Of a stretch of 64,000 nt of DNA, positions 30,284 through 35,942 are shown in pieces; positions within the stretch are counted from its first letter, which is position 1, and each line of letters opens with the position of its first letter. The position numbers were made by a program, and so were the translations under genes. A model generated the notes under the pieces. That model was not told the origin of the DNA, did not search any database, and worked only from the letters and a program-made list of their open reading frames with translations. The stretch is from Lachnospiraceae bacterium (GTDB lineage Bacteria > Bacillota > Clostridia > Lachnospirales > Lachnospiraceae), in the NCBI GenBank assembly GCA_017553505.1, contig JAFZLD010000010.1, positions 62,001 to 126,000 on the forward strand, written 5' to 3'.

Positions 30284-30519
30284 GTGCGCCCAAAGCTATT
30301 AACATCGGCATGGTATGCGATATAAGTTGCGATGCGAGATGATATGGTACACATATATAATACTATTGCGCAATATAAGCGGTATATGCAATACTATATA
30401 TACGATTATACCAACATAGTATATTGGCATCACACCAATGCAAAATGGGATTGCTTTGTTTGCATTCGATGATTACTTGTTGGGTATCGTTTATCAGCGG
30501 TTCGAAAGGAGAATACAGA
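30284..30519 (+). promoter_or_regulatory. AT-rich upstream region of Cys-rich peptide 1
   Basis: No gene. It is dense in small palindromes, including a perfect TATTGCGCAATA at 30364-30375 and a TATATATA-rich patch, but no good -35/-10 pair stands out. AACATAGTATA at 30413-30423 recurs, inverted, upstream of the second peptide at 32495-32505, in both cases about 95 bases before the start codon. A strong GAAAGGAG ribosome binding site ends the region. Confidence 0.45.
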
Positions 30520-30771
30520 ATGAATAGTTTTGAATTCATCGGAAATTGCTTTGCGGATTCAATGCCTGAAACAGATGACGTTGCATGTGCTCTCGATATG
30601 CCTTGCAGAACTGTCGGCTGTAGTGTCAAGGGTATTGGGTGCCGTATTGACGGATGCTTGTTAAAGGGCGTTGTATGCAGATTGGATGTATGCAGATTGC
30701 TCGGTTGCCGCGTTGAGGTACCTATTTGCCCTGCGGCAATTTGCAGAGCGGACGTTGTTATCCCGCGCTAA
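30520..30771 (+). CDS. Cys-rich RiPP precursor peptide 1 (11 Cys, 5/7 spacing)
   Basis: An 83-residue peptide from the ATG at 30520, 8 bases after AAAGGAG. It begins MNSFEFIGNCFAD, a short leader matching FVGNSFAE of the peptide at 32597. After a spacer, cysteines fall at 29, 34, 41, 46, 53, 58, 63, 70 and 75: steps of 5 and 7 alternate almost throughout. C10 and C23 are extra. Charged residues often sit three after a cysteine (Asp44, Asp56, Glu66, Asp78). No signal peptide. It is probably a substrate of the radical SAM protein at 32972, although 2.2 kb and a terminator separate them. Family known only as a type (Cys-rich radical SAM RiPP precursors); mature product unknown. Confidence 0.75.
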   Translation: MNSFEFIGNCFADSMPETDDVACALDMPCRTVGCSVKGIGCRIDGCLLKGVVCRLDVCRLLGCRVEVPICPAAICRADVVIPR

Positions 30772-30852
30772 GTATCTGAGTAAAGGCCATATTTGATTAA
30801 TTTGGTGTGAAATAGTGATGCATTAGAAGCAGTCCCAATACCATATTCACAA

Positions 30853-30883
30853 AAAGCTCCTCACGAATTGTATGAGGAGCTTT
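30853..30883 (+). terminator. Hairpin terminator after peptide 1
   Basis: AAAGCTCCTCA pairs perfectly with TGAGGAGCTTT (11 bp) around CGAATTGTA. The trailing T-run is short. It separates peptide 1 from the PadR operon. Confidence 0.75.
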
Positions 30884-30888
30884 AACTA

Positions 30889-30936
30889 TTGACAATTATT
30901 ACACTTAGTGATATATTACGGTTAACGATATATTAC
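30889..30936 (+). promoter_or_regulatory. Promoter and likely PadR operator
   Basis: TTGACA (30889-30894) and TATATT (30912-30917) are separated by 17 bases. The 10-mer GATATATTAC occurs at 30910-30919, over the -10, and again at 30927-30936, a 17-base direct repeat ending 26 bases before the padR start. Overlap with the -10 and the start site suggests autorepression by the PadR protein it drives. Confidence 0.6.
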
Positions 30937-30962
30937 AGTAAACGTAATAAGGAGGCTGAAAC

Positions 30963-31280
30963 GTGAAGGACAACGTTAAAGGCGGTGCACTTACAGAAGT
31001 AACTTTTTTCATACTTCTTTCTTTGTACACACCCAGGCACGGTTATGCGGTCATGCAGTTTGTTGAAGAGAAGACCGGCGGAAGACTGACACTTGGCGCC
31101 GGAACATTGTACGGAGCGATTACAACTCTTCAGGACAAAGGCTGGATAGAGCCCTGCGGAGGCGATGAAGGCAGGAGAAAAGAGTACGTGATTACAAGCA
31201 CCGGTAAGGAAGTGGTTAACAGGGAACTTGACCGACTTGAAAAGTTGACACAAGTTGCCGGAGAAATCGTTGGGAGGTAG
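30963..31280 (+). CDS. PadR-family transcriptional regulator
   Basis: A 105-residue winged-helix protein of the short PadR-s2 type: GGALTEVTFFILLSL, HGYAVMQFVEE, a recognition region GRLTLGAGTLYGAITTLQDKG and the wing GRRKEYVITSTGKE, followed by a dimerisation helix. Starts at a GTG after AAGGAGG. It is followed after 3 bases by a DUF2812 gene, a pairing repeatedly seen in Clostridia where the regulator controls the membrane protein. Position between two RiPP precursors suggests it may sense the product or envelope stress, but this is inference. Confidence 0.9.
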   Translation: MKDNVKGGALTEVTFFILLSLYTPRHGYAVMQFVEEKTGGRLTLGAGTLYGAITTLQDKGWIEPCGGDEGRRKEYVITSTGKEVVNRELDRLEKLTQVAGEIVGR

Positions 31281-31283
31281 AGT

Positions 31284-31871
31284 ATGAAGAAAATCAGATA
31301 TTTTGCCGGAATGCTTAATACCCAGGAAAAGTGGCTTAATGACATGGCTGCTCAGGGATACAGACTTAAAAAGGTCCACAAACTGGTATATGAATTCGAA
31401 GAATGTGAGCCCGGCAAGTACCAATATGCCGTAGAGTATGTCGGCAACAAGGACTATGAAGAATTGAAGAAATATCACGATTTCCTTGAAGACGTGGGGT
31501 ATACGGTCTTCTACAAGAACATCAATCTGAACTATTCGATAGGAAAAGTAAGGTTCAGACTTTATAAATCAAAGCCCTGGGTTCCCGTTACCAACAAAAC
31601 CGGTTATAACAAAGAAATCCTGATAGCAGAAAAAGAAAACGACGGGAAGCCCTTTGAACTTCATACCGACAAGGATGACAGAGTGGCGTACTACAAAGAG
31701 TTGCTATATCCATATGTGGTTTTGTTTGCCCTGTTTGCTTTGTTTGCATTTGCTATAAAGAATCTCGCGCCCGCTGTAATAGCGGCATTATTGGTAATAC
31801 CGATGGGAGTATACGGATATAGATTATACAAAGAAAAAAGAACGGGAGGTCGTTGGGAGAATGAACAATAG
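31284..31871 (+). CDS. DUF2812 membrane protein
   Basis: A 195-residue protein with the DUF2812 pattern: MKKIRYFAG, EKWLNDMAAQGYRLKK, a soluble domain of about 110 residues, then two hydrophobic helices (about 140-160 and 162-180) and a short basic tail. Such proteins are usually encoded directly after a PadR regulator, as here. Their function is not established. GGGAGGTAG precedes the ATG; its end overlaps the next gene by 11 bases. Confidence 0.85.
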   Translation: MKKIRYFAGMLNTQEKWLNDMAAQGYRLKKVHKLVYEFEECEPGKYQYAVEYVGNKDYEELKKYHDFLEDVGYTVFYKNINLNYSIGKVRFRLYKSKPWVPVTNKTGYNKEILIAEKENDGKPFELHTDKDDRVAYYKELLYPYVVLFALFALFAFAIKNLAPAVIAALLVIPMGVYGYRLYKEKRTGGRWENEQ

Positions 31872-32253
31872 CCGAAAGAAAACAATACTTACAACCATAC
31901 TTGTTGCAGCTATAGTTGTTATTGCGATTATTCTGCAGCAGAACGGATTTATACCTTCTAAAGTGGGCTCCAGGACCGGATGGACGGAGAATATCGGTAA
32001 CAAGAGCTGGGAAGTAAATTATATATCTTTGGATGGTAAATTTTCCAAGTATATTAAACCTGAGAACAATACAGTTGTTGTCGAAGTTGTAACTAAGAGT
32101 GGGGAGTTGACAATAGAGTTGACAGACAAGGACGGCAACAGCATATTTAACCATAAGTTCACGGAAAGCGAGACTTTGGAAGTCCCTGTAAGCGGCAAAA
32201 TAAAAATTAAAGCAACTGCCGATGATCATTCGGGAGGCTTTACTGTGAAGTAA
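31861..32253 (+). CDS. Small membrane-anchored extracytoplasmic protein
   Basis: A 130-residue protein with a basic start (MNNSRKKT), one uncleaved-looking membrane helix at about 8-26, and an outside beta-rich domain (VVVEVVTKSGELTIELTDKDGNSIF) of about 95 residues. It overlaps the DUF2812 gene, so the three form one operon ending at the hairpin at 32288. No family recognised. The position between RiPP precursors would fit an immunity or export accessory protein, but nothing in the sequence proves this. Confidence 0.65.
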   Translation: MNNSRKKTILTTILVAAIVVIAIILQQNGFIPSKVGSRTGWTENIGNKSWEVNYISLDGKFSKYIKPENNTVVVEVVTKSGELTIELTDKDGNSIFNHKFTESETLEVPVSGKIKIKATADDHSGGFTVK

Positions 32254-32287
32254 GAGTGCCAATGTAGGAAAAAGCCATATAAAGAAG

Positions 32288-32335
32288 GAGCCTAATGCTA
32301 ATGTCGCATGAGAAGCATTGGGCTCTTTCTTTTTA
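32288..32335 (+). terminator. Terminator of the PadR operon
   Basis: GAGCCTAATGCT pairs with AGCATTGGGCTC (one wobble) around a 14-base loop, followed by TTTCTTTTT. Confidence 0.85.
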
Positions 32336-32397
32336 TGCCATGATTAAAGTAAATGGAAACTTGTGTTGTGAGTGTAAACAAATTCATATAGGCGCAT

Positions 32398-32426
32398 TTG
32401 ACTAATATTACCAAAATAAATATACA
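32398..32426 (+). promoter_or_regulatory. Promoter of the RiPP peptide 2-maturase-exporter operon
   Basis: TTGACT and TATACA are separated by exactly 17 bases, giving a leader of about 165 bases before the peptide start. The leader includes TGCAT/ATGCA (32445-32459) and the palindromic element at 32485. Confidence 0.6.
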
Positions 32427-32484
32427 AATTGAAAATAGTATTGATGCATAATACATGCAATAGTAATATATTCATTACAAATTC

Positions 32485-32506
32485 GAACAGTATGTATACT
32501 ATGTTC
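32485..32506. promoter_or_regulatory. Palindromic element shared with the peptide 1 upstream region
   Basis: GAACA...TGTTC flank an inner GTAT-GT-ATAC. The minus strand reads AACATAGTATA, the same 11-mer found at 30413-30423 before peptide 1. It may be an operator or part of a leader stem; chance cannot be excluded in such AT-rich DNA. Confidence 0.35.
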
Positions 32507-32596
32507 TTGCCAACTGGTCAAACGGCTGCTTTTCAAGAACAGAAAACATGCCGGAGAAGTTTGCCAAGATTAGTGAGTTTGAAAGGAGAAAGTATT

Positions 32597-32881
32597 ATGA
32601 CAGCTCAATTTGTTGGAAACAGCTTTGCTGAAACAAATGCGAAAGTAAGCAAATGCCCTGCAGCAGTATGCCCTGTTGCAGTATGTCCTGCAGATGCGGG
32701 ATGTGGACTCAACGGATGTGGTACTGCGGGTTGTGGCGCTAACCTTTGCGGCGTCGATGGTTGTACAGTAGCCGGTTGCGTAATTAATGCATGTCCTATT
32801 GCCGGATGTGCACCTGCTGACGGATGCTTACTCAACGTCCTTCCTATTCCCGGTCCTTTTAGCGAAGACGACACAATTTAA
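32597..32881 (+). CDS. Cys-rich RiPP precursor peptide 2 (12 Cys, pentad spacing)
   Basis: A 94-residue peptide from the ATG at 32597, preceded by GAAAGGAGA. A 19-residue leader (MTAQFVGNSFAE...) precedes cysteines at 20, 25, 30, 36, 41, 46, 51, 56, 61, 66, 71 and 77; every step is 5 except two of 6. The residue three after each cysteine is always Ala, Asn or Asp, and glycine often precedes the next cysteine. A Cys-free tail (LLNVLPIPGPFSEDDTI) ends it. It sits 90 bases upstream of a radical SAM-SPASM gene, so it is the likely substrate for thioether crosslinking (sactipeptide or ranthipeptide class). The regular pentads could fold as a small beta-helix. Product activity unknown. Confidence 0.85.
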   Translation: MTAQFVGNSFAETNAKVSKCPAAVCPVAVCPADAGCGLNGCGTAGCGANLCGVDGCTVAGCVINACPIAGCAPADGCLLNVLPIPGPFSEDDTI

Positions 32882-32971
32882 TAATTTATAGAATAAGAGT
32901 CAATTAACAATTGGGATAAGCGTCAAGCTTATTAAAGGCAGCCGAATTTAAAGGAAAATGGGGACATAAAG

Positions 32972-34327
32972 ATGAAATATTCAAAGTTTAATCTCCTGGT
33001 AGAGGGGAAAGACAATAAAAAGATATTGTTTAACACAATGAGCGGAAACAACTTTGTCATCTCGGATGATTTGTGTGATGCGCTTAAGAGTGGAAACGTT
33101 GATGTATTGGATGAAGATATAAGAAAGGCCTTTATTGAAAAGGGCATCATTATTGACGACAAAATCGATGAAAATAAGTATTTTGCGTACTATCACAACA
33201 AAACCAAATTCGATAACAGCAGTGTCGGTTCGACCATTCTTTTGACATGGGCCTGCAATTTCGCCTGCGTATACTGCTTTGAGGGCGCCGGAGAAAAGGT
33301 TCTGACCCTGACCAAAGAAAACGCGGACAAATATGTCAAGTTCATGAAGAACCAGGCGAAGGGCAGAAAAGCTTCGTCTATGAACATCACGTTGTTTGGT
33401 GGAGAACCGCTTGTAAACATTAAGATGGGATTTGAGATTCTTGACGAGCTTCATTCTTTCTGCGACGAAGAATCCATTGAATTTTCCTGCGGAATCATTA
33501 CCAACGGTACATTGCTTACAGATGAAGTTCTCGATAAGCTCAAGGCACATAACTGCAACATGATTCAGATTACCCTTGACGGCATGAAGGAAGTTCATGA
33601 CGGCCGCAGACCTTATAAGGGCGGAAGGGGGTCTTTTGACGATGTAATAGCAGCGATTAAGAAAGTCAATGACAAAGAAGGCGTTCACGGCGTCATTCGT
33701 ATAAACGTTGACAAAACCAATATTGATGAGGCGTTTAAGCTTCTTAAGTATCTGGGCAAAGACGGCGAGAACCTTACAAATTGTACCGTGGATTTCGGTA
33801 TCGTAAGAGGATCTACAATGGCTTGCTCGGCATATGCGGGCAATTGCTTCGTAGAAGAAGAAATCGGCGAGATTTTGGATGTTCTGTGGGCCGAGGCCGA
33901 AAAGAACGGATTTATCGAGAATACCACACCTATGAGAAGGTGGATGTATTGCGGATTATACAGCGACAGCCAGTTCACCGTTACGCCTGATGCGGCAGTT
34001 TATAAATGCTGGGAGCATGCGGGTATGGATGAGCACAAGATGGGTGAGCTTGATGAGAACGGTAACTTCGTCAATCCTCAGTTTGCTTATTTTGACTGGA
34101 TGTCTGCTACTCCTACGGAAAATGAAGACTGCGCGGCTTGCGTATATCTTCCCGTATGCGGCGGCGGTTGCGGCGTAGTAAGCTACAACGAAACTCAGAG
34201 CTACCACTCTAAGGGCTGCTTCAAGGTACGCGGCGTGGTTGAGAAACAGGTAGAGAGATATGTAAATAAAAAGCTTGAGCATAAATGCGCAGAGTGCAGT
34301 GCTCAATGTGAGGCTAAGGATGCATAG
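32972..34327 (+). CDS. Radical SAM-SPASM peptide maturase
   Basis: A 451-residue enzyme. Residues 1-85 form a leader-binding-like N-terminal domain; the radical SAM motif is CNFACVYC (Cys95, 99, 102). FGGEPL, the SAM-binding GGE block, follows. The SPASM region is complete: Cys326-X18-Cys345 and CAACVYLPVCGGGC (CX2CX5CX3C) plus a later cysteine in SKGCF, enough for two auxiliary Fe-S clusters. An extra CX2CX3C (CAECSAQC) sits at the very C-terminus. Enzymes of this type make thioether bonds from cysteine to carbon in RiPP precursors; anSME-type maturases are the other branch, but the adjacent Cys-rich peptide favours a RiPP role. The exporter gene overlaps its end. Confidence 0.93.
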   Translation: MKYSKFNLLVEGKDNKKILFNTMSGNNFVISDDLCDALKSGNVDVLDEDIRKAFIEKGIIIDDKIDENKYFAYYHNKTKFDNSSVGSTILLTWACNFACVYCFEGAGEKVLTLTKENADKYVKFMKNQAKGRKASSMNITLFGGEPLVNIKMGFEILDELHSFCDEESIEFSCGIITNGTLLTDEVLDKLKAHNCNMIQITLDGMKEVHDGRRPYKGGRGSFDDVIAAIKKVNDKEGVHGVIRINVDKTNIDEAFKLLKYLGKDGENLTNCTVDFGIVRGSTMACSAYAGNCFVEEEIGEILDVLWAEAEKNGFIENTTPMRRWMYCGLYSDSQFTVTPDAAVYKCWEHAGMDEHKMGELDENGNFVNPQFAYFDWMSATPTENEDCAACVYLPVCGGGCGVVSYNETQSYHSKGCFKVRGVVEKQVERYVNKKLEHKCAECSAQCEAKDA

Positions 34328-35942
34328 CTTATTTGCAATGAGCCGGGATGTAATGCGGCGTCATGCTTTTAAAGTGGTAATCTATATTGCTTTAAGCCTG
34401 ACGCTTGGGTTACAGTCGCTGGCGATTCCCTACATAACGGGTAACTTTATAGATTGCCTTAACACCTCGGCAGATATGAGCGGCATCTATAGGTACTGCA
34501 ATATCTATTTCGGGGTGGCTGTTATAGGAATAATCGGTGGATATATCAACAACAGGCTGAATATCAATATCCTCACGCGGATGTCGTATGACCTCAACAA
34601 ATCCGTGATTGAGCATATTCAAAGAATCGGTCTGACGGCGGTAAGATATGAGAACACCGCTGAACTTAACCAGAAAGTGAACAACGATTCCAATGCCGTG
34701 ATTTCTTTCTGCGTGTCCGTAATTCAAGGCATTTTGAAAAATGTGCTTACGATAGCGGTGGCGCTCTACGTAATGATACGACTTGAGAACAGGGTTCTGA
34801 TTATTGCGATTGCCAGTATTCCGATATATGCAATCATATTCTTCCTTATCAGGCGGGCGATTTACGAAGCGGGCAAAGAATTTAAGAACGCTCAGACCGT
34901 TTTCTTTGGCAAGATGTATGAGCAGTTGTCTTACATCAAGCAGATTAAGATAAACGGACTGGTGAAGGGCTTCACAAAGCGGATGGACCGATACTTCCCG
35001 GGTCTTATGAAGAGCGCGTACAAATATCAGGATGTATCTTATCTCTTTTCGTCCATAGATACCGTAGTCATGTCGCTTGCTCAGGTTGGACTTTTTCTGT
35101 ACTGCGGCTATGCTGTTATCGGCAAAAGAATGACTATCGGCCAGCTTACTCTTGTGTCGAGCTATTTCGGGATGTTTATAGGAGCCGTGAGATATTTCTT
35201 TTCACTGGGTAAGACTGTTCAGGATACAAAGATATCGGAAGCCAGACTCAGGGAAATCATTGAGGTACCGGAGGAAGAGAACGGAACCACCGAACTTTCC
35301 GGTATCGACAGAATCAAGAGCAGTGACTTATCGCTTGCTATCGGGCCAAAGAAAATATATTCGGATATTAATCTCGATTTGGAAAAGGGAAAGATTTATG
35401 TTCTTGAGGGTGAGAACGGAAGAGGAAAGACTTCGCTGGCGTTATCGTTAATCGGACTGTATAACCCTGAGATGCACGGCGACATTACATATGACGACTT
35501 TGGTATAACGGAGCTTGATATGTATAAGGCGCGACAGGGGAAGGTAGTTTACCTTGAGCAGGAGCCCAGGCTTTTTGATGACAGCATTCTTTACAATGTT
35601 ACACTCGGGCAAGAACACTATGATTCGAAACTCATGGAAGAGCTGGCTGAAACATTTAATATCAGGGAACTGATAGAGGGGCAGCCCGAAGGCTGGAATA
35701 CTGCGACGGGAGGTTCGGATACGACTTTCTCGGGTGGTGAGAAGCAAAAGATGATGTTGGTAAGGACGTTTCTTAACAATCCGGAACTTGTGATTCTGGA
35801 TGAACCCTCATCTGCGCTTGATGCCGGTTCGACGCAGGCGCTGTGCGATTATTTAAAATCTACCGGGCGGGAACGCATCACGGTGATAATAACCCATGAT
35901 GAGATATTCAAAAATATAGCGGACAAAGTTCTGACTTTGTAA
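34320..35942 (+). CDS. ABC exporter, fused membrane and ATPase domains
   Basis: A 540-residue half-transporter: six hydrophobic helices in the first 310 residues, then an ATPase with Walker A GENGRGKTS (about 364-372), signature FSGGEKQ, Walker B LVILDEPSSALD and an ITHDE histidine switch. No N-terminal C39 peptidase domain is present, so leader removal must be done by another protease or not at all. I start at 34320, 8 bases inside the maturase gene, with GAGG upstream. Position indicates export of the modified peptide, possibly also self-protection. Confidence 0.9.
   Translation: MHSLFAMSRDVMRRHAFKVVIYIALSLTLGLQSLAIPYITGNFIDCLNTSADMSGIYRYCNIYFGVAVIGIIGGYINNRLNINILTRMSYDLNKSVIEHIQRIGLTAVRYENTAELNQKVNNDSNAVISFCVSVIQGILKNVLTIAVALYVMIRLENRVLIIAIASIPIYAIIFFLIRRAIYEAGKEFKNAQTVFFGKMYEQLSYIKQIKINGLVKGFTKRMDRYFPGLMKSAYKYQDVSYLFSSIDTVVMSLAQVGLFLYCGYAVIGKRMTIGQLTLVSSYFGMFIGAVRYFFSLGKTVQDTKISEARLREIIEVPEEENGTTELSGIDRIKSSDLSLAIGPKKIYSDINLDLEKGKIYVLEGENGRGKTSLALSLIGLYNPEMHGDITYDDFGITELDMYKARQGKVVYLEQEPRLFDDSILYNVTLGQEHYDSKLMEELAETFNIRELIEGQPEGWNTATGGSDTTFSGGEKQKMMLVRTFLNNPELVILDEPSSALDAGSTQALCDYLKSTGRERITVIITHDEIFKNIADKVLTL

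Follow-up and report, generated by a model that had tools for sequence, protein, structure and literature searches.

Two cysteine-rich precursors with a common leader and a Cys-x-x-[N/D/K/E] register at a candidate ranthipeptide locus of a Lachnospiraceae bacterium

The locus described here lies in a 64,000-nucleotide stretch of the genome of a Lachnospiraceae bacterium (GCA_017553505.1, contig JAFZLD010000010.1, positions 62,001-126,000 of the forward strand), which we call the window and whose positions serve as coordinates throughout. It encodes a radical S-adenosylmethionine (SAM)/SPASM maturase, CefB, together with an ATP-binding cassette (ABC) protein and two Cys-rich peptides, namely the operon precursor CefA and a second peptide encoded further upstream for which the name pepU was coined here. 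We propose, at a probability of roughly 65%, that one CefB-type maturase forms side-chain thioether rings from Cys(i) to residue i+3 in both CefA and pepU in the style of ranthipeptides.

The original prediction had read this locus as a two-precursor radical SAM-SPASM system for ribosomally synthesized and post-translationally modified peptides (RiPPs), and the two peptides, the maturase gene and the ABC gene were all found where it had placed them (Table 1). A search of RiPP families gave NCBIfam names to the operon peptide and the enzyme, both of which are members above cut-off of the 'Cys-every-fifth' families: CefA scores 57.2 bits on NF038108 (cut-off 30) and CefB 769.8 bits on NF038107 (cut-off 600), a model that exceeded its cut-off in none of 14 control genomes. 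The second peptide, pepU, with its X4/X6 ladder, falls outside these models; it has no NCBIfam or Pfam family, and NF038108 missed the window copy and the copy of a related genome, Lachnospiraceae bacterium YSD2013, alike. The arrangement by which ranthipeptides are recognized, a Cys-rich precursor beside a radical SAM/SPASM enzyme, is present in the window. As had been noted from the start, the two peptides have the same leader, which reads FIGNCFAD in pepU and FVGNSFAE in CefA. The motif [FY][ILV]GN.[FY] stands near the N-terminus of all ten CefB-clade precursors, and its background is low: among 3,269 stop-free, ATG-started 20-mers from the window and 29 loci it occurs twice, in CefA and in pepU. 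The DNA form of the motif, extended by a further codon start GA, had two matches in the window's own genome, both of them the precursors (reversed control, 1), five in G312, evidently YSD2013, of which two are the orthologues (control, 2), and three in the genome G304, none of them a precursor (control, 2). In relatives this DNA form lacks specificity.

The feature that is constant among the ladders is the residue three positions after each Cys and not the spacing of the Cys. This was counted in the ten precursors, which come from the window, from YSD2013 and from three further CefB-clade loci (contig C23 of the same genome, G459 and G304). The leader Cys of pepU (window and YSD2013) and of L067a were excluded and one of 131 core Cys was dropped as the last residue, leaving 130. 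An N, D, K, E, H or Q stands at +3 from 111 of these, versus 133/659 among all core non-Cys residues, and the same residues are rare at the other offsets (+1, 6/130; +2, 5/130; +4, 3/128). Glycine is never found at +3 (0/130). All seven such residues in the core of the window pepU sit at +3; by peptide, the polar counts are 7/10 for pepU, 6/12 for CefA, and 17/18 and 17/17 for the C23 peptides. When residues were shuffled within each peptide, the observed +3 count was reached in 0/20,000 shuffles for seven of the ten, and the remaining p values were 0.0021 (CefA), 0.0001 (YSD2013 CefA) and 0.011 (the G304 precursor G304b). The register follows the preceding Cys across X4, X6 and X7 gaps. The ladders themselves vary considerably: the 12 Cys of CefA have gaps of 4,4,5,4,4,4,4,4,4,4,5, that is X4 with two X5, and pepU, with 11 Cys of which 10 are in the core and one in the leader, mixes X4 and X6 with one X5 (core gaps 5,4,6,4,6,4,4,6,4). 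G304b has X4/X7, and the C23, G459 and G304a peptides alternate X6 and X4 with some X7, one X5 and one X3. The differently spaced ladders that the original prediction had put forward are thus real in their spacing but secondary to the constant C-x-x-[N/D/K/E] register. Its ladder length of 11-12 Cys also stands for the window, and is exceeded in sister systems that reach 17-18 Cys, one of them in the same genome.

Several observations weigh against this reading. Ala occupies +3 for 6 of the 12 CefA Cys; unless Ala serves as an acceptor, only about half of the CefA Cys would close such rings. Lys is found there for 21 of the 130 core Cys, and we know of no case of Lys as a thioether acceptor. 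The register counts and shuffles are not independent tests because the ten peptides are related, and in X4 gaps the +3 position coincides with -2 counted back from the following Cys. A control set of ten peptides from a Clo7bot locus also had a +3 enrichment, if a weaker one (23/37 vs 71/173 overall, p 0.0007); the register may therefore extend beyond the CefB clade, or may be structural. NF038108 matched in 2/14 control genomes and exceeded its cut-off in 1/14, and for that reason the CefA family match is weak on its own. AlphaFold returned unusable models for CefA (predicted local distance difference test score, pLDDT, 35.5, from an alignment of two rows) and for CefB (pLDDT 43.1). Finally, pepU is separated by other genes from cefA, 1.8 kb downstream, and the idea of a promoter or regulator motif common to their two upstream regions was rejected, as these share the ribosome-binding block GTTYGAAAGGAGAA alone.

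The Clo7bot locus itself (L068; G509:C134, 4850-8042) has a run of ten small Cys-rich precursors; the family was confirmed for its maturase and for two scanned peptides.

A structural origin of the register would be a beta-solenoid fold like that of pentapeptide-repeat proteins, with the Cys pointing inward and no cross-links along the ladder. The five-residue periodicity of CefA, in which Cys is followed by a mostly hydrophobic residue at +2, matches the geometry of such solenoids. We nevertheless regard this fold as very unlikely: neither CefA nor pepU had a Pfam pentapeptide-repeat match at E <= 1, the gaps range from 4 to 7, a radical SAM maturase adjoins cefA, and AlphaFold yields no CefA fold, which is weak evidence with two alignment rows.

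Additional support for a two-precursor system with i+3 rings came from the wider CefB clade. Two precursors are present at each of the three further loci and thus at every one of the four distinct loci of the clade that were found. The window and YSD2013 have one of the pair outside the operon. Contig C23 of the same genome (L059, 7868-13440) encodes a CefB-like maturase 45% identical to CefB, an ABC exporter and two tandem 18-Cys precursors. G459 (L067, 5356-9365), from another bacterial family, has two precursors, an ABC exporter and a maturase 69% identical to the C23 enzyme, a likeness across families that suggests horizontal transfer. In G304, one contig end carries two precursors and the first 199 CefB residues, and another contig end carries the C-terminal CefB part and the ABC protein, the two ends sharing a stretch of the same protein. 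Its G304b precursor (L078, G304:C55 1003-1230, minus strand) is short and aromatic, with an MNKYLGNGF leader and six Cys at gaps of 4,7,4,7,4; it has no NCBIfam match and neighbors a 12-Cys precursor. The five CefB-clade maturases, one of them a fragment, form one clade with support of 100/99 in a 14-row tree that fails to resolve 7 of its 11 inner branches. On NF038107 the enzyme of C23 scores 557 and that of G459 574, both below its cut-off, and the precursors of these two loci score 19-26 on NF038108. A profile built from eight precursors and run against 394 relatives matched three of them (E <= 1e-5), each of which has a CefB-clade gene, so that peptides without a maturase, which the original prediction had named as counter-evidence, were not encountered there. 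Around 14 weaker maturase matches (L010-L023), the small open reading frames in which Cys exceeds 9% included no ladder with a CefB-clade leader. The ABC proteins of the clade loci are only loosely related, with the window protein being 28% identical to the one that follows cefB in G304 and 21% identical over 432 residues to that of C23. As a separate observation, the C23 locus is adjoined by a two-gene ABC transporter.

Conservation was assessed with a scan of genome contigs for six short peptide patterns, which is sensitive to close relatives only. It gave one relative, YSD2013 (L039), whose CefB is 93% identical and whose gene order matches the window: pepU, PadR, DUF2812, small membrane protein, cefA, cefB, abc. 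The YSD2013 pepU (L039:4565-4816) has 77% identity and keeps 11/11 Cys, and the YSD2013 CefA has one five-residue unit fewer than that of the window. Ratios of nonsynonymous to synonymous substitution rates (dN/dS) between the two are 0.25 for pepU and 0.15 for cefA (where dS is 1.05, near saturation), with 0.09 for cefB, 0.11 for abc and 0.03 for murF. Both precursors are therefore conserved as proteins. This synteny in a second species, the common leader and the paired precursors all bear out the two-precursor RiPP interpretation. CefB matches at E <= 1e-60 were found in 3 of 18 genomes of the genus and pepU in 2 of 18, in a sample of which 12 genomes fall short of 90% completeness or exceed 5% contamination. 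NF038107 exceeded its cut-off in 1/299 genomes of the family, 1/391 of the class and 1/398 of the phylum, the window's own genome each time, and in 0/32 genomes of G459's family; YSD2013 came from other searches than these.

That CefA and pepU are both CefB substrates is very probable on this comparative evidence. The converse, that pepU serves some other maturase as substrate or stays unmodified, as a Cys-rich peptide with a metal-binding or structural role, is worth weighing because it lies outside the operon without an NF038108 match in a genome with other radical SAM/SPASM maturases, including a PapB-like enzyme (L004, on C5; 197 bits, cut-off 340) and a TIGR04463-like one (L003, on C28; 189 bits, cut-off 525). 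Moreover, the spacing of pepU is closer to that of the C23 peptides than to that of CefA, and the C23 maturase was for this reason considered as its enzyme. YSD2013, however, has pepU and a single CefB match at E <= 1e-60, so pepU can be retained without a C23-type maturase, and CefB is the better candidate. The leader that pepU has in common with CefA, a +3 register that surpasses CefA's (7/10 vs 6/12) if not that of the C23 peptides, and the presence of this cefB in both genus genomes with pepU all point the same way, and we consider a pepU independent of CefB improbable.

Both the SAM-cluster motif and the SPASM motif of the maturase (Table 1) are kept in the five aligned clade members, one of which covers the C-terminal part alone and so lacks the first motif, and C327, C346 and C416 are invariant among them too. 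After the CefB model itself, its best NCBIfam scores are for the TIGR04463, Clo7bot, geopeptide, FlmE/OhkG, PapB, nif11 and SCIFF maturases. It is a member of none of the four of these compared by cut-off: C-rich maturases TIGR04463 (235.1 bits, cut-off 525), Clo7bot TIGR04334 (230.5, cut-off 600), PapB NF047865 (124.8, cut-off 340) and SCIFF TIGR03974 (98, cut-off 425). The solved structure closest by sequence is 5wgg, which we take to be CteB, followed by 6efn (SkfB). The latter, as second-best structure, would accord with a sactipeptide-type chemistry in which CefB would bridge Cys to alpha-carbons, perhaps with the bridges nested in a hairpin, and a +3 position free of Gly also suits alpha-carbon acceptors. 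On the other hand, the sactipeptide maturase model RumMC is outside the best 25 NCBIfam scores of CefB and gives the enzymes of C23 and G459 scores of 55-61 bits, and regular C-x-x-[N/D/K/E] units fit local rings rather than a hairpin. We consider the sactipeptide alternative unlikely, and an acceptor carbon other than C-alpha is accordingly the side that we lean toward, with some reserve.

Precedents for side-chain rings exist. According to excerpts of PMC9413430, the single radical SAM enzyme PapB installs six thioethers of the Cys-X3-Asp/Glu type in the freyrasin precursor PapA, attached at C-beta or C-gamma and either in line or nested, and accepts spacings of 0-6 residues; this tolerance makes that of CefB for varied ladders plausible. 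The units differ, being CX3D there and C-x-x-[N/D/K/E] here, and core Cys are more numerous here, 10-18 apart from six in G304b. In NxxcA, the substrate of NxxcB, the Cys and Asn partners are likewise three apart, and a C-beta thioether joins Cys23 to Asn20 (PMC8326336, in excerpt); that ring is single with the Asn before the Cys, whereas the rings proposed here are many with the acceptor after it. SCIFF/CteB (thermocellin) also pairs a radical SAM/SPASM enzyme with a Cys-rich substrate, although the SCIFF precursor holds six Cys according to the same excerpt. The Clo7bot system (TIGR04333/TIGR04334), with TIGR04463 the next-closest maturase family, resembles the present one in having several Cys-rich precursors per maturase (L068) and differs in its MKYIVKP-type leader and short peptides of 36-43 residues. 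Cyclophane enzymes activate Lys and Asn carbons.

In the mechanism that we favor, CefB would bind the common leader [FY]-[ILV]-G-N-x-[FY] of both precursors and move iteratively along the core, bonding each Cys sulphur to residue i+3 at a side-chain carbon that is probably C-beta. The resulting 13-atom C-x-x-X rings would follow one another without nesting, with spacers of 1-3 residues between them, so that the X4 ladder of CefA and the X4/X6 ladder of pepU could be read by one rule. A protease encoded elsewhere would cut off the leader, and the ABC protein would export the product, an assignment that we consider probable. The parts of this scheme differ in strength: a thioether bond is quite probable, and for i+3 as its target we see about even odds. 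A general code for the CefB clade, in which Cys plus a polar i+3 residue specifies up to 17-18 identical 13-atom C-x-x-[N/D/K/E] rings, Cys-Asn and Cys-Lys rings among them, in two unlike substrates per locus and irrespective of spacing, is put forward tentatively, as somewhat doubtful.

Table 1. Positions of the precursor, maturase and neighboring features in the window
Feature	Position	Strand	Remarks
Ribosome-binding site AAAGGAG of pepU	30505..30511	+	sequence
pepU, second precursor, 83 residues	30520..30771	+	leader MNSFEFIGNCFADSMPETDDVA; 10-Cys core; name coined here
Leader motif F-I-G-N-C-F of pepU	30535..30552	+	
PadR regulator, DUF2812 protein, small membrane-anchored protein	30963..32253	+	Pfam; between the two precursors
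36-nucleotide element in cefA leader	32504..32539	+	35/36 bases kept in YSD2013
Ribosome-binding site AAAGGAG of cefA	32582..32588	+	sequence
cefA, operon precursor, 94 residues, 12 Cys	32597..32881	+	NF038108 match; CX4C ladder, two CX5C steps
Leader motif F-V-G-N-S-F of cefA	32609..32626	+	
cefB, radical SAM/SPASM maturase, 451 residues	32972..34327	+	NF038107 match
CX3CX2C SAM-cluster motif of CefB (CNFACVYC, residues 95-102)	33254..33277	+	
SPASM CX2CX5CX3C motif of CefB (residues 387-400)	34130..34171	+	
ABC exporter, membrane and ATPase domains, without C39 peptidase	34320..35942	+	PF00664, PF00005; start overlaps cefB end

The genes between the two precursors may serve in immunity or regulation. 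As the original prediction had stated, no C39 domain was found in a Pfam scan of the locus proteins. Its clear promoter at 32398 fared less well: the sequence TTGACT-17-TATACA exists, yet it is outside the 11 promoter-like sites of a consensus scan for which 12.5 were expected by chance, and at this site YSD2013 reads TTGACC in the -35 and differs in the -10. The same scan, yielding no more sites than chance, gave TTGACA-17-TATATT at 30889-30917. The 36-nucleotide element in the cefA leader is kept although nearby bases have diverged between the window and YSD2013; each of these two genomes has one copy, and four other genomes of the genus have none. A riboswitch in this leader was rejected because the region matches nothing in Rfam and has neither an unusual nor a stable fold, as was an upstream open reading frame in the element, the frame of which is not kept. 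A viral origin was likewise set aside, CefB and the element having no match in viral contigs, and a plasmid origin as well, with no megablast match in plasmids for window positions 32400-34400.

The CefA/CefB family names were known already; the second substrate and the +3 code are apparently new as far as our searches reach. Thioether ladders of 17-18 rings and a Cys-Lys thioether would, to our knowledge, also be new. No paper was found under the names of the Cys-every-fifth families, TIGR04463 or Clo7bot in the literature searched, which covered few subscription journals, and wider searches gave no title on the CefB clade. A paper on the Hungate1000 collection relies on the TIGR03973 rule to count ranthipeptides, and its excerpted main text leaves YSD2013 unnamed (PMC13289728); a genome-mining review is also on record (PMC11002830, in excerpt). 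Since pepU matches no family model, mining based on such models can miss a second substrate. If the proposal is true, a single enzyme follows a simple sequence code to build long, regular thioether ladders and tolerates varied spacing. This would provide a useful tool for peptide stapling as well as a testable substrate rule for an enzyme family that has been named but apparently not studied.

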